Of a stretch of 43,701 nucleotides of DNA, positions 37,254 to 42,315 are shown piece by piece. This DNA is from Acidimicrobiia bacterium (GTDB taxonomy: Bacteria > Actinomycetota > Acidimicrobiia > Spongiisociales > ZC4RG35): the NCBI GenBank assembly GCA_009837815.1, contig VXSV01000135.1, positions 1 to 43,701 on the forward strand, written 5' to 3'. The position numbers and the translations under genes were made by a program. How positions within the stretch are numbered: the stretch's first letter is position 1; each line of letters opens with the position of its first letter. The notes beneath the pieces are model-generated. The model saw only the letters and a list, made by a program, of their open reading frames with translations. It was not told where the DNA came from and made no database searches.

Positions 37254-38729
37254 TCATAGGAGGAGTCCACTGGTGTCTTCGACGTCTTCCTCTCTCATCA
37301 GCATGGCGGGCAGGATGGCCAGCAGGGAAAGGAATCCGGTGATCATGAAGAGGTTCTGGAACACGGTGACGCCGGCTCCTATCAAAACGGCCTCGGTCTC
37401 CTCGAAGGTCGGTCCCAGGGCCACGTCGCCGGTCAGGCTGTAGAAGCGTTCTATGCCCCAGGCGGACAAGGCGGCCAGGCCCAACGCCATCCCCACCATC
37501 CGCGACGCCGTCACCAACGAGGCCGCCGCTCCCCAATAGTGGCCCGGGGCCGCGCTCAGAGCGCTGACTCCTATGGGCGGGATGACCAACCCGAATCCCA
37601 AACCCGCCATAACCAGGGGCAGAGTGAGCCGGGGTTCTTCCACCTGGGTTTCCCAGCCACTCATGACCAACAAGCCCGCCCCCATGAACGCCAAGCCTAT
37701 GATGCACACCGATCTCACTCCGGCCCGGCGCAGGACATAGCCTCCCACCACCGCCCCCACCGGAATGGCTGCCGTCAGCCGCAACAATTGGAGAACGCTC
37801 TCCAATGCTCCCTTCTCCATGACGGTGGCCGCCATGAGCGGCACTGCCACCAACGCGATGATCAGGGCGACCCCAACCAGGAACTGGGTTGTGTTGGAGG
37901 AGAGAAACGCCCTGGACCTGTACAGGAAGGGGGCCAGGAGTGGCTGGGCGGAGCGTCTCTCCACCATGACCAGCGCGAAAATCAAAGCGATCCCGGCCGC
38001 CGCGAAGAGGTAGGGGTACACCGACTCTCCCGAGAAAATGGCCCGCTGCGATAGCCCGGCGGTCAGAAAGATAAGGGACGCTCCCAGCACCACCGCCCCG
38101 AAATAGTCCATCTTGGCCGCGGGGTTGGGGCGATTCGGCAGGATGGCCAGAAGCCCGATGAGAATGAAACTCTGGGGTATGTCCAGCCAGAATATCCACC
38201 GCCACCCCGCCAACTCGATGATTGCCCCCCCATATAGTGGCCCCAACACCGACCCGGCTTCAGCCGCGGCCGCCACCAGCCCGATCGCAATGCCCCTCCT
38301 TTCGGGCGACACCGCCGCCACCGCCATCGCCAAACCTATGGGCACTGTGGCGCCTCCTCCGACTGCCTGGATCACTCTGGCGGAAACTATCCACTCGAAG
38401 TTGGGCGCCAGGGCCACGAACAACGACCCTACCGAGAACACCACCAAAGAGGCCTGGAACATCCTGATGCGCCCGTGGACGTCGGACAGGCGCCCACCCA
38501 AGGGCATGGCCACCGTGTAGGCGACCAGGTACCCGGTGACGATCCAGGACGCTCTGTCGAGGTCGGTGAGAGGGATCTCCAAGTCCACCATGACGCCTGG
38601 CAGGGCGGCCACCACAACGGTCTGATCCAGGGCGGTGGAAAAGACCCCCAGGCAGATGATCGCCAGAACACCCGACTCGGAGGAGGCTATTGACGTGAAG
38701 AGCTGTCTGGCGCCCTTCACTGCCCTCAC
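37254..38729 (-). CDS. MFS transporter, DHA2 (14-TM drug/lipid exporter) type
   Basis: FSTALDQTVVVAALPGVMVDL; ASWIVTGYLVAYTVAMPLGGRLSDVHGRIRMF; GTG 38729 overlaps the upstream lipoprotein stop (GTGA); track ORF start at 39089 over-extends. Confidence 0.92.
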   Translation of the reverse strand: MRAVKGARQLFTSIASSESGVLAIICLGVFSTALDQTVVVAALPGVMVDLEIPLTDLDRASWIVTGYLVAYTVAMPLGGRLSDVHGRIRMFQASLVVFSVGSLFVALAPNFEWIVSARVIQAVGGGATVPIGLAMAVAAVSPERRGIAIGLVAAAAEAGSVLGPLYGGAIIELAGWRWIFWLDIPQSFILIGLLAILPNRPNPAAKMDYFGAVVLGASLIFLTAGLSQRAIFSGESVYPYLFAAAGIALIFALVMVERRSAQPLLAPFLYRSRAFLSSNTTQFLVGVALIIALVAVPLMAATVMEKGALESVLQLLRLTAAIPVGAVVGGYVLRRAGVRSVCIIGLAFMGAGLLVMSGWETQVEEPRLTLPLVMAGLGFGLVIPPIGVSALSAAPGHYWGAAASLVTASRMVGMALGLAALSAWGIERFYSLTGDVALGPTFEETEAVLIGAGVTVFQNLFMITGFLSLLAILPAMLMREEDVEDTSGLLL

Positions 38730-39511
38730 CCGAGGTCCGGGAGTTCGATGTCGACAGAAACGTCGATGCCTTCGATGGTCAGGAGGCGGACGGTTTCGGG
38801 TGCGTCGTCGTTGTAGATCCGGCCGGCGATCCTGATCTGCTTCAGAGCGTGGTCGGTCTCGTCGATCCAGAGACCCAGGCTCACCGCATGACCCGGGTCG
38901 ACGGACGAGATGAGGTCCGACAACTGCTCTGACGACAAGGTTCCATCGACGCGGATGGTCTGGACGCCGTCCAGAGACTCCCGGCCTGCGACAACGGCGC
39001 CGTCCTTGATGGTGGTGAGCAGATCCTGCAAAGTGAAGCCCAGTCCCGAGAATTTGAATGGCACCTGCTCCAAGGGGAGGGGGTTCCACGGCGCATCTGC
39101 AGAGAGCTTGAGGTATGCCTCCTCCCCGACCGCCATCATCTCTATCTCCACAAACCCGAATCCGGGCGCCTCCACGTCAACAACCATCCTGAAGCTGTCG
39201 GGCGACTCGACCTCTGTTTCCATCCTCTTGAAGGTGGTGCCGAAGAACTTGGCGCCCGATTCCAGTTCGTCGACCATGCTGAACCTGGCGGTCGACATGG
39301 CGGCCATCACCTCTCCCGCCCCGGTCAGCAGGGCATCCACATCAACGTCCGGCGCCGGATCGGGCGAGGAGTCCCCTCCGCACCCGGCGACCAGGGAAGC
39401 CAAAGCCATCATCGCAACGGTGATGGAAAATAGCCGAGGCGGTGTCCTGGACGGCCTTGTGTCGTCGGCTCGATCGAGGCGGTTGAAGATGCTCCTCGTC
39501 AGCCACAGCAT
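38726..39511 (-). CDS. LppX/LprAFG-family lipoprotein
   Basis: Signal + lipobox LASLVAGCGG; LDGVQTIRVDGTLSSEQLSDLISSVDPGHAVSLGLWIDETDHALKQIRIAG typical of LppX_LprAFG. Confidence 0.8.
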   Translation of the reverse strand: MLWLTRSIFNRLDRADDTRPSRTPPRLFSITVAMMALASLVAGCGGDSSPDPAPDVDVDALLTGAGEVMAAMSTARFSMVDELESGAKFFGTTFKRMETEVESPDSFRMVVDVEAPGFGFVEIEMMAVGEEAYLKLSADAPWNPLPLEQVPFKFSGLGFTLQDLLTTIKDGAVVAGRESLDGVQTIRVDGTLSSEQLSDLISSVDPGHAVSLGLWIDETDHALKQIRIAGRIYNDDAPETVRLLTIEGIDVSVDIELPDLG

Positions 39512-39564
39512 GATAAAAGTCAGGGTAGCCGCATCTCTTCGAGGAGACCTGCCATCTTCCGACG

Positions 39565-39570
39565 TATAAT
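39565..39570 (+). promoter_or_regulatory. Candidate -10 element for the methyltransferase gene
   Basis: Perfect TATAAT 30 bp upstream of GTG 39600 in the divergent intergenic region; -35 not obvious. Confidence 0.4.
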
Positions 39571-39599
39571 GCCACTGCCTCGAATAGTGGAAAGGCGCC

Positions 39600-40637
39600 G
39601 TGCGACTCCGTGAACTACACAAAGGGCTGAAGGCCGCCTACCGCGGGTCTGACGTCGCTCACCGCGTTCGACGCTTCCATGGATGGAGCGACAGAGCCTC
39701 GGCGGCGGAAGTCCGGACGAGCGACTACGACCACGCCGAAACCGTGGAGGAATACTACGACCTCTGCAGCGAGTTCATGGTGTTCGGTTGGGGTGAGTCC
39801 CTGCACTTCGCCCCTCTGGCGCCCCACGAGAGCTTGGAGGAGTCCAAGATCCGACACCAGCGGTTGATGATCGCCAAGCTCGAGTTGACAGAGGGCATGA
39901 CGGTGATCGACGTCGGTTGTGGGATCGGCGGTCCGATGCGCCGTTTGGTCCGCGAGGCCGGCGTCAGGGTCGCCGGAGTAAACCGCAGCAAGATCCAGCT
40001 CGACAAGGCCAAGGCGTTGAACGCCGAGGCGGGACTCGAGCATATGGCCGACTACCTGGAGGCCAGCTTTATGGACATGGGCGCCTTCGCGGACGCCACT
40101 TTCGACCGGGGTTACGCAATCGAATCCACATGCCATGCGCCGGACAAGGTGGGGGCCTTTGCCGAGATCCACCGCGTGCTGAAGCCCGGTGCGCTGTTCT
40201 GGGGTCAGGAAATGTGCATGACCGACAAGTTCGACTCCGAAGACCCCCGGCACCGGACTATCAAACAGGACCTGATGCATGGCATCGCGCTAAAAGACAT
40301 CGCCACTACCGATGAGGTGGACAGGGCTCTGGCAACGGCGGGATTCGAGGTCATCGAAGGGGTGGACCGAGCGGTCGATGAGAACAGTGCGGTCACGCCC
40401 TGGTACCTGCCCATGGATACTCCCCACCGGAGGGGGGGAAACGCCCTACGCAGGATCCCGATGGGCCGCCGGGCAATCGTCTGGGCATCCAGCCTGGCCG
40501 AAGCCACAAGAGTGTTGCCCAAGGGGTCATCGGATGTCATCAAATTGCTGGATCAGACCGCCAAAGCTCTTGTCGAAGGCGGAAGCACCGGCCTTTTCAC
40601 TCCTCTGTACTGTTTCCTGGCGCGCAAACCTCTCTAA
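39600..40637 (+). CDS. Sterol 24-C-methyltransferase (Erg6/SMT)-like SAM-dependent methyltransferase with SMT-type C-terminal domain
   Basis: YYDLCSEFMVFGWGESLHFAP; VIDVGCGIGGPMRRLVREAG; YAIESTCHAPDKVGAFAEIHRVLKPG; CMTDKFDSEDPRH; C-term GLFTPLYCFLARKPL. Confidence 0.85.
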   Translation: MRLRELHKGLKAAYRGSDVAHRVRRFHGWSDRASAAEVRTSDYDHAETVEEYYDLCSEFMVFGWGESLHFAPLAPHESLEESKIRHQRLMIAKLELTEGMTVIDVGCGIGGPMRRLVREAGVRVAGVNRSKIQLDKAKALNAEAGLEHMADYLEASFMDMGAFADATFDRGYAIESTCHAPDKVGAFAEIHRVLKPGALFWGQEMCMTDKFDSEDPRHRTIKQDLMHGIALKDIATTDEVDRALATAGFEVIEGVDRAVDENSAVTPWYLPMDTPHRRGGNALRRIPMGRRAIVWASSLAEATRVLPKGSSDVIKLLDQTAKALVEGGSTGLFTPLYCFLARKPL

Positions 40638-40663
40638 ATCCTCTCCCCGCCGTCATACACATG

Positions 40664-40684
40664 CCGGACCGCGGACAGGTCCGG
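40664..40684. terminator. Possible hairpin terminator between the methyltransferase and tRNA-Ile (convergent)
   Basis: ccggacc-gcggaca-ggtccgg, perfect 7-bp stem, 7-nt loop; no U-tract. Confidence 0.4.
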
Positions 40685-40728
40685 GAACCAGCCTCCCTGT
40701 AGAGCCTTCGACCGGCGTCAAATCCGGT

Positions 40729-40802
40729 GGGCCCACCTGGATTTGAACCAGGGACCTCATCCTTATCAGGGATGCGCTCTAACCAACCTGAGCTATGAGC
40801 CC
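40729..40802 (-). tRNA. tRNA-Ile (GAT)
   Basis: Reverse complement GGGCTCATAGCTCAGGTTGGTTAGAGCGCATCCCTGATAAGGATGAGGTCCCTGGTTCAAATCCAGGTGGGCCCA: cloverleaf arms, TTCAAAT loop, anticodon GAT; CCA not encoded. Confidence 0.95.
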
Positions 40803-40968
40803 GGAAAACCCAAATCCTAACCCCGTTGATTTCGGGCAAGGTCCGGTTTTGGACAGGGCGCTCTTCCAGGCCGCAGGTCGCCAGGGCGCCGTGGGGCCGG
40901 CAGGAACTATCGTTCGGGGCGGGCGTGGGTTCGGTATGTCCAGAACGAGAGGCGGAGAGTTTGAGATC

Positions 40969-42315
40969 ATGAGACAGGCAGGGGCGATCGTGGTCGGCGC
41001 CGGGATCGCAGGCGTGGCGACCTGCTATGAACTGGCGGTGGTCCGGGGGGTGGAGGAAGTGATAGTGGTAGACCCCCGGCCGCCCCTTTCTCTCACATCC
41101 GACAAATCCTCGGAGTGTTATCGCAACTTCTTCCCAAACAAGCCGATGGTCGAGTTGACCAACCGATCCATCGACATCCTGGAGACCATGAAGGAGGAGT
41201 CCGACGACTTCTTCAACATGTCACGGAGGGGGTACCTTTTCGTGACCGGCGACCCCGGGCAGTTGGCGGCGCTTGCCAGAGCGGCGGAAGCCAGTTCGGG
41301 CTATGGGGCCGGCCCGGTTCGATTCGCCGGGTCTGCGGTTGATGGTGAGGAGCAAACCGGTTTTGTTGTCTACCAGACCCCAGAGGCCCTCCTGGGTCGG
41401 TTCCCATACCTAAGCGACAAAGCCCTGGGGGCGCTGCACGTTCGCCGGGGTGGCTGGTTCAGCGCCCAGCAGCTGGGCGCCTGGATGCTGGAGCAGGCCC
41501 GGAACCACGGAGCGGAGGTCGTGTTCGATGAAGTAGTGGACATAGAGACACAGCGGGGGAGTGTTGCAGGCGTGCTGCTGAGATCGGGCGCCCGGATCTC
41601 GGCCCCGGTTGTGGTCAACGCGGCCGGGCCGATGTCCAAACACCTGGCGCGCCTGGTGGGTGTCGAGTTGCCCTTGCACGCCTCCCTACACCACAAGGTT
41701 TCGTTCAGAGACCACCTTGGAGCGTTTCCCCGCGAGGCGCCCATGCTCCTTTGGACAGACCCGGTAAGCATCGACTGGAGTGAGTCAGAGAGGTCCGATC
41801 TGGCCGCGGAAGGGTTCCACGAGCTGCTGGGGGAGATAACCACCCCGGTCTTCGGTCGGCCCGAAGGGGGCATGGACTCGCCCTTCGTCGAGGCGCTCTG
41901 GAACTACCGACCCTATGTTCTGGACGAACCCACATGGCCGCCGCCGCGGGCCGACGTCATGTTTCCCGAGGCGGTGCTGCGAGGATTGTCGGACATGTTG
42001 CCGTCCCTGGCCCGTTACCGCCATCAGTTGCCCTACTCGGTGGTGGACGGCGCATACGTGATGAAGACCCCGGAGAACCTGCCGCTGATAGGGCCTGCGG
42101 GCCCCGCGGGGTTCCACCTGGTGACGGGGATGTCGGGATACGGGGTGATGATTTGCGCGGCCGCCGCCGAACTGGTCGGCGCCCAGGTGACGGGAGGCGA
42201 ACTCCCCGGGTATGCGGACAAGTTCCTTCTCAGCCGCTACGAGGATTCCGATTACCTGGCAGGCCTGGACCTGGTGGACACCGGCGAACTGGCCAAGCAG
42301 GGAGCAAAGCGCTGA
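40969..42315 (+). CDS. FAD-dependent oxidoreductase of the DAO family (sarcosine oxidase beta / dimethylglycine dehydrogenase-like)
   Basis: GAIVVGAGIAGVATCYELAVVRGVEEVIVVD Rossmann motif; SECYRNFFP; C-term GPAGFHLVTGMSGYGVMICAAAAELV; ATG 40969 preceded by an SD-like ggcggagag. Confidence 0.85.
   Translation: MRQAGAIVVGAGIAGVATCYELAVVRGVEEVIVVDPRPPLSLTSDKSSECYRNFFPNKPMVELTNRSIDILETMKEESDDFFNMSRRGYLFVTGDPGQLAALARAAEASSGYGAGPVRFAGSAVDGEEQTGFVVYQTPEALLGRFPYLSDKALGALHVRRGGWFSAQQLGAWMLEQARNHGAEVVFDEVVDIETQRGSVAGVLLRSGARISAPVVVNAAGPMSKHLARLVGVELPLHASLHHKVSFRDHLGAFPREAPMLLWTDPVSIDWSESERSDLAAEGFHELLGEITTPVFGRPEGGMDSPFVEALWNYRPYVLDEPTWPPPRADVMFPEAVLRGLSDMLPSLARYRHQLPYSVVDGAYVMKTPENLPLIGPAGPAGFHLVTGMSGYGVMICAAAAELVGAQVTGGELPGYADKFLLSRYEDSDYLAGLDLVDTGELAKQGAKR

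Follow-up and report, generated by a model that had tools for sequence, protein, structure and literature searches.

A sterol methyltransferase (SMT)-like gene in an actinobacterial cell raises the question of what the encoded enzyme methylates and, if the substrate is a sterol, who makes it. Steranes with 24-alkyl and 26-methyl groups are taken as signs of early sponges and algae. The window, a stretch of 43,701 nucleotides, comes from a metagenome-assembled genome (MAG) whose sponge habitat is inferred from its relatives. It carries DnaA, DnaN, RecF, GyrB, GyrA, YidC and ParA, in agreement with the origin region recognised in a first-pass annotation of the sequence.

The SMT-like open reading frame (39600..40637, + strand) is present and open, starts with GTG and encodes 345 residues. 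Two Pfam profiles match the protein: Methyltransf_11 (5e-18) and Sterol_MT_C (PF08498; 4.3e-16), the latter over residues 284–344 (40449..40631, + strand) with 59.2 bits against a cut-off of 21.7. No Sterol_MT_C match was found in the 14 control genomes. The profile result confirms the earlier reading of the C-terminus as SMT-type and of the protein as something other than a generic methyltransferase. The class-I SAM methyltransferase domain has an intact SAM-binding motif (VIDVGCGIGGPMRRL, residues 102–116; 39903..39947, + strand; translation, Pfam and alignment), and an AF2 model, used for fold confirmation only, has a pLDDT of 84 and class-I methyltransferases as its top Foldseek matches. 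Identities of 70–74% to proteins in four congeners and of 78% to a copy in a Chloroflexota MAG (G397) indicate a conserved protein, not a chance reading frame. The clade to which it belongs, termed type A, averages 35% identity to the yeast Erg6 reference and 41% to that of Arabidopsis SMT1 over about 330 residues. Similarity to these SMTs is full-length and matches elsewhere are partial. In a PDB search with the window protein, no match spanned the full length; the solved structures closest to it belong to small-molecule and geranyl-diphosphate methyltransferases, and no close SMT structure was among the matches. Together, these data support assigning the predicted protein to the SMT family, as a homologue with the SMT-specific C-terminal domain, rather than to the generic class-I methyltransferases.

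Two kinds of SMT occur in the relatives. Type A copies within the genus are 64–74% identical to the window protein, whereas type B shares about 40% identity with it. In a quick tree built from SMTs only, with no outgroup, the 86 type A sequences fall on one side of a branch with an SH-aLRT value of 100. Region I is canonical in type B (FYEYGWG) and reads MVFGWGE in type A. We aligned the 86 type A sequences with yeast Erg6 and Arabidopsis SMT1. Tyr81 (yeast numbering) is replaced by Met, Tyr223 by Gln and Trp225 by Met in 86 of 86 members; Glu82 is non-acidic in 84, mostly Val or Ile, and retained in two. In the window protein, Met60 and Val61 stand at Tyr81 and Glu82 within the altered Region I (YYDLCSEFMVFGWGESLHFAP, residues 52–72; 39753..39815, + strand), and MVFGWG takes the place of YEYGWG with its aromatics and Glu. 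Gln203 and Met205 stand at Tyr223 and Trp225 within GQEMCMTDKFD (residues 202–212; 40203..40235, + strand). Acidic residues are invariant in type A at yeast positions 98, 125 and 195, the last being Glu175 in YAIESTCHAPD (residues 172–182; 40113..40145, + strand), and those at 189, 209, 224 and 276 are retained in most members. The motifs quoted in the first-pass annotation are all found in the translation, but its claim of counterparts to all four conserved blocks is not supported as stated: blocks I and III are there in altered form (MVFGWGE for YEYGWG; QEMCMTD for YEWCMTD). Type A thus shares with eukaryotic Erg6/SMT1 the domain order, SAM motif, IESTCHAP block, Sterol_MT_C tail and most acidic residues, and differs from them at Tyr81, Glu82, Tyr223 and Trp225 and in overall sequence (about 35–41% identity to the two references).

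The aromatic residues of Region I, Y81EYGWG86, have been tied to C-24 methylation; in the nematode 4-SMT they are lacking, and that enzyme adds its methyl group to sterols at C-4 (PMC6997595). Because type A has lost these aromatics, their C-24 role and the nematode precedent lead us not to file it as a canonical 24-SMT. The resemblance to the nematode enzyme, which is only 21% identical to Erg6 (PMC6997595), is one of missing Region I aromatics and need not reflect kinship. The earlier claim of a genuine SMT acting on a sterol therefore stands in part: the family is right and a sterol is likely, as type A occurs in sterol clusters, but the label 'genuine C-24 SMT' goes beyond the evidence, since the residues that the literature connects with C-24 are missing from the window protein. 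With the aromatics and the acid of the canonical C-24 pocket replaced across the clade, type A probably departs from Erg6 either in the position it methylates or in the side chain it accepts.

It is possible, but we think rather unlikely, that the substitutions are tolerated and type A is an ordinary C-24 SMT that, like the canonical bacterial enzymes, methylates desmosterol and other delta-24 sterols. The acidic catalytic candidates other than Glu82 are largely retained. In one study, 20 of 24 metagenomic SMTs tested (8 of 10 from sponge symbionts, 12 of 14 environmental) were active on desmosterol or 24-methylenecholesterol (PMC10070321). Some of these proteins may be type A, because that study admitted matches down to 30% identity to the yeast enzyme, a level that type A passes. 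Against this reading, replacement of Glu82 and of the three aromatic residues is essentially universal in type A, and many genomes carry type A together with the canonical type B, which suggests that the two do different jobs.

We asked whether the cell could supply a sterol itself. The window genome (2.34 Mb, 94.4% complete, 156 contigs) and all 16 relatives searched yielded neither a member of the SQHop_cyclase family (squalene-hopene/oxidosqualene cyclase) nor a squalene epoxidase, and the controls for both searches matched. Both genes are missing in all five congeners; a type B SMT was not found in the window genome. With no cyclase or epoxidase found, we reject, as far as this assembly allows, de novo synthesis, which the first-pass annotation had allowed for: the cell very probably makes no sterols and, should the enzyme act on a sterol, is unlikely to produce that substrate itself. 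In this respect, the window gene differs from eukaryotic Erg6/SMT1, as it sits in a cell in which sterol synthesis was not detected. The missing genes might lie in gaps of this fragmented assembly, and an OSC with the DCTAE motif does occur in type A carriers, though in only 6 of 50 genomes. We regard such hidden synthesis as very improbable, as both genes are missing in the five congeners and in all 16 relatives searched. Of the 50 genomes, 25 lack hopene and sterol cyclases alike; those with neither this lack nor an OSC have cyclases that show the hopene-cyclase DxDD motif wherever it is readable.

The neighbours of type A genes recur in loci from many phyla and bear on the nature of the substrate. 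Within 8 kb of type A, a GPP34:P450 fusion occurs at 51 of 80 loci, a KshA_C Rieske oxygenase at 40 and a flavin amine oxidase at 30. An RND protein with MMPL, Patched and sterol-sensing domains (56.6 bits for the last) is also found nearby. The nearest solved relatives of the Rieske protein and the amine oxidase are KshA and LkcE, respectively. Among 396 genomes of the class, the fusion is present in 22 of 22 with a type A SMT and in 4 of the 374 others (Fisher p 2e-32, with genomes not independent); some of the 22 were typed by a score range of 56–68 bits rather than by reading the sequence. Counted by genus, the fusion occurs in 6 of 6 type A genera against 0 of 178 (p 2e-11; 184 genera). 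A shared sponge lifestyle could contribute to this association. In the window genome, the fusion and the RND protein with its sterol-sensing domain lie side by side on another contig (C48:42274-46931; L217:12275-16932). The Rieske oxygenase and amine oxidase that flank this pair in congeners are missing on C48 and were not found elsewhere in the genome, so the module is partial. An open-access, incomplete literature search found no description of the module or of the GPP34:P450 fusion.

The pairing of the fusion with the RND protein is conserved across phyla. Three genomes of the class (G305, G328 and G372, of which G328 is a single contig) have the fusion, and a type A SMT was not detected in them. 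A flavin amine oxidase in G038 (C7:29448-30803) is 87% identical to that of G004; as G038 has only a type B SMT, this enzyme is not tied to type A alone.

The strongest hint that type A acts on a sterol comes from two Nitrospira-group MAGs (L098 and L100), in which the type A gene follows a KshA_C Rieske gene by about 90 bp and lies near a type B SMT. L098 also encodes a squalene epoxidase-OSC fusion and a P450, and L100 encodes SdmA/SdmB-like genes. Because these copies are embedded in sterol clusters, a sterol substrate is likely for type A. Both clusters hold the two SMT types, the KshA-type Rieske oxygenase and a beta-barrel outer-membrane protein, and the squalene epoxidase-OSC fusion is present on both contigs.

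The loss of canonical pocket residues could, however, also reflect a non-sterol substrate. If the SMT scaffold had been reused for another lipid, such as a different isoprenoid or a sponge-specific metabolite, then the altered pocket, the 25 cyclase-free carriers and the affinity to small-molecule and geranyl-diphosphate methyltransferases, the nearest solved relatives where no close SMT structure was found, would all fit. We consider this unlikely, given type A copies inside the Nitrospira-group sterol clusters and a module that includes a KshA-like steroid oxygenase and a sterol-sensing RND pump.

The reading we favour, and hold to be reasonably probable from the comparisons above, is that type A is a divergent, horizontally spread clade of the SMT family that methylates the side chain of sterols from the host or from neighbours, with a changed site or substrate specificity. 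The window cell would take up a sterol made by the sponge host or by sterol-making neighbours, and the type A enzyme would then methylate the presumed sterol side chain with SAM. It probably works with the GPP34:P450 fusion and the RND lipid pump encoded on the other contig; most relatives carry the KshA-type Rieske oxygenase and the flavin amine oxidase as well. Type A recurs beside steroid-type enzymes and a transporter, a pattern suggesting that bacteria alter sterols produced by other organisms. Its presence in many phyla of sponge microbiomes, in cells mostly lacking sterol synthesis, would mean that symbionts can remodel the sterols of others, and the clade-wide pocket changes together with the linked module offer concrete enzyme candidates for missing sterol side-chain steps. 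A bolder version, which we regard as a long shot, is that type A methylates the sterol side chain at a different carbon, such as C-26 instead of C-24, and that with the linked P450 and transporter the symbionts, not the sponge, are a source of unusual sponge sterols. PMC10070321 describes the enzymes of C-26 methylation as undiscovered and names aplysterol, a 26-methyl sterol, as the main sterol in Aplysina aerophoba.

A single scan of the species genomes in GTDB with the SMT alignment gave 413 relatives, of which we examined the best 80 (65–78% identity). The gene is thus not an isolated rarity, and the earlier view that true bacterial SMTs are rare is wrong for the type A clade. By record titles, these best 80 of 413 include Chloroflexota, Acidimicrobiia, Alpha- and Gammaproteobacteria, Gemmatimonadota, Dadabacteria, Nitrospira-group bacteria, Nitrospinota, Latescibacterota and Truepera; the carriers among them are MAGs from about ten phyla, mostly from sponge microbiomes. 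Isolate names of the form jk18x denote Ircinia MAGs (PMC9531527), and we infer, as for the remaining host assignments, that the prefixes RHO, COS and IRC fit Rhopaloeides, Coscinoderma and Ircinia, which are among the sponge hosts sampled (PMC8163846). Phylum labels require 19 changes on the type A tree, where ten states imply a minimum of nine. We take the horizontal spread of type A as established.

Bacterial SMTs of sponge symbionts, including their in vitro activity, are already known (PMC10070321), as are steroid gene clusters spread among Ircinia symbionts (PMC9531527). The SMTs of Brown et al. 2023 (PMC10070321) likewise come from uncultured bacteria, sponge symbionts included, and one from Chlamydiae, which occurs without other sterol genes, was active. 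The main text of that paper names no Actinobacteria, and in the portion available neither an altered-pocket clade nor a GPP34:P450/RND module was found. Kelly et al. 2022 (PMC9531527) reported SMT1/ERG6 as enriched in Ircinia symbionts and clusters that, like type A, are horizontally spread over about ten sponge-symbiont phyla. Their clusters combine ERG24, CYP51 and lanosterol synthase, whereas type A is accompanied by GPP34:P450, Rieske, amine oxidase and RND genes, in carriers that mostly lack an OSC. The RND protein of the module resembles BstA, the sterol transporter of Methylococcus (PMC10942540), in being an MMPL/RND pump linked to sterol genes, with homology compared at the superfamily level only; unlike BstA, it is tied to a modifying enzyme, and the cells concerned lack an OSC. 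As far as could be found, the type A clade with this pocket signature, the genes that accompany it and the tRNA-linked insertion described below appear to be new.

The window SMT itself is best read as an acquired insertion against the 3' end of a tRNA-Ile gene, based on an empty site in congeners, a break in homology at the tRNA and the identity pattern relative to GyrB. In three congeners, gyrA, DUF3566, MFS, lipoprotein, tRNA-Ile, FAD oxidoreductase and amidohydrolase genes follow in the same order, at about 71–94% identity, without the SMT. Homology to them ends at 39365 and restarts at 40726, the 3' end of tRNA-Ile (gat; 40726..40802, − strand). The intervening stretch (39366..40725), without clear homology to the empty site, has an exact right border at the tRNA and an approximate left border (about 39366), and replaces about 0.4 kb of other sequence present in the congeners. 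GyrB is 94% identical to that of the four congeners and 54% to that of the Chloroflexota MAG, a pattern that the SMT inverts (see the identities above). Since the source is a MAG and the closest copies, among the best 80 of 413, lie in other phyla, a binning or assembly artefact was considered. It is barely credible: the SMT is flanked by the syntenic congener genes on a contig with gyrB and gyrA, and type A also occurs in records labelled chromosomes (e.g. OX638353.1, OX638327.1). No integrase was found beside the window SMT. A tRNA lies within 1.5 kb of type A at only 3 of 87 loci, and we reject it as a general insertion site. Another location within the same genus (L018, G002) holds a third type A variant (64%), so type A appears to have been gained or replaced repeatedly in the genus.

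The flanking genes were considered as partners of the SMT. The FAD-dependent (DAO-type) oxidoreductase (40795..42315, + strand; the frame overlaps the tRNA and the real start is probably about 40970) lies outside the insertion; it and the amidohydrolase are locus residents in congeners, as synteny indicates, and were rejected as partners. Upstream are a DHA2-type MFS transporter (37254..39089, − strand; Pfam, PDB and synteny), whose frame is probably too long at the N-terminus, and an LppX/LprAFG-type lipoprotein (38726..39622, − strand; Pfam, a weak PDB match to LprG, and synteny), whose frame overlaps the SMT start and whose true start is likely about 39511. Homologues of both (70–80% and 49–58%) occur at Chloroflexota type A loci, but congeners keep the pair without the SMT, and we rejected a transferred unit for this locus. 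The best solved relative of the MFS protein is a putative triacylglyceride transporter (8pnl), and the MFS and LprG-like lipoprotein pair (37254-39622) resembles mycobacterial lipid export. The MFS homologues adjoin type A SMTs in five Chloroflexota loci, which suggests that the pair has a transfer history of its own.
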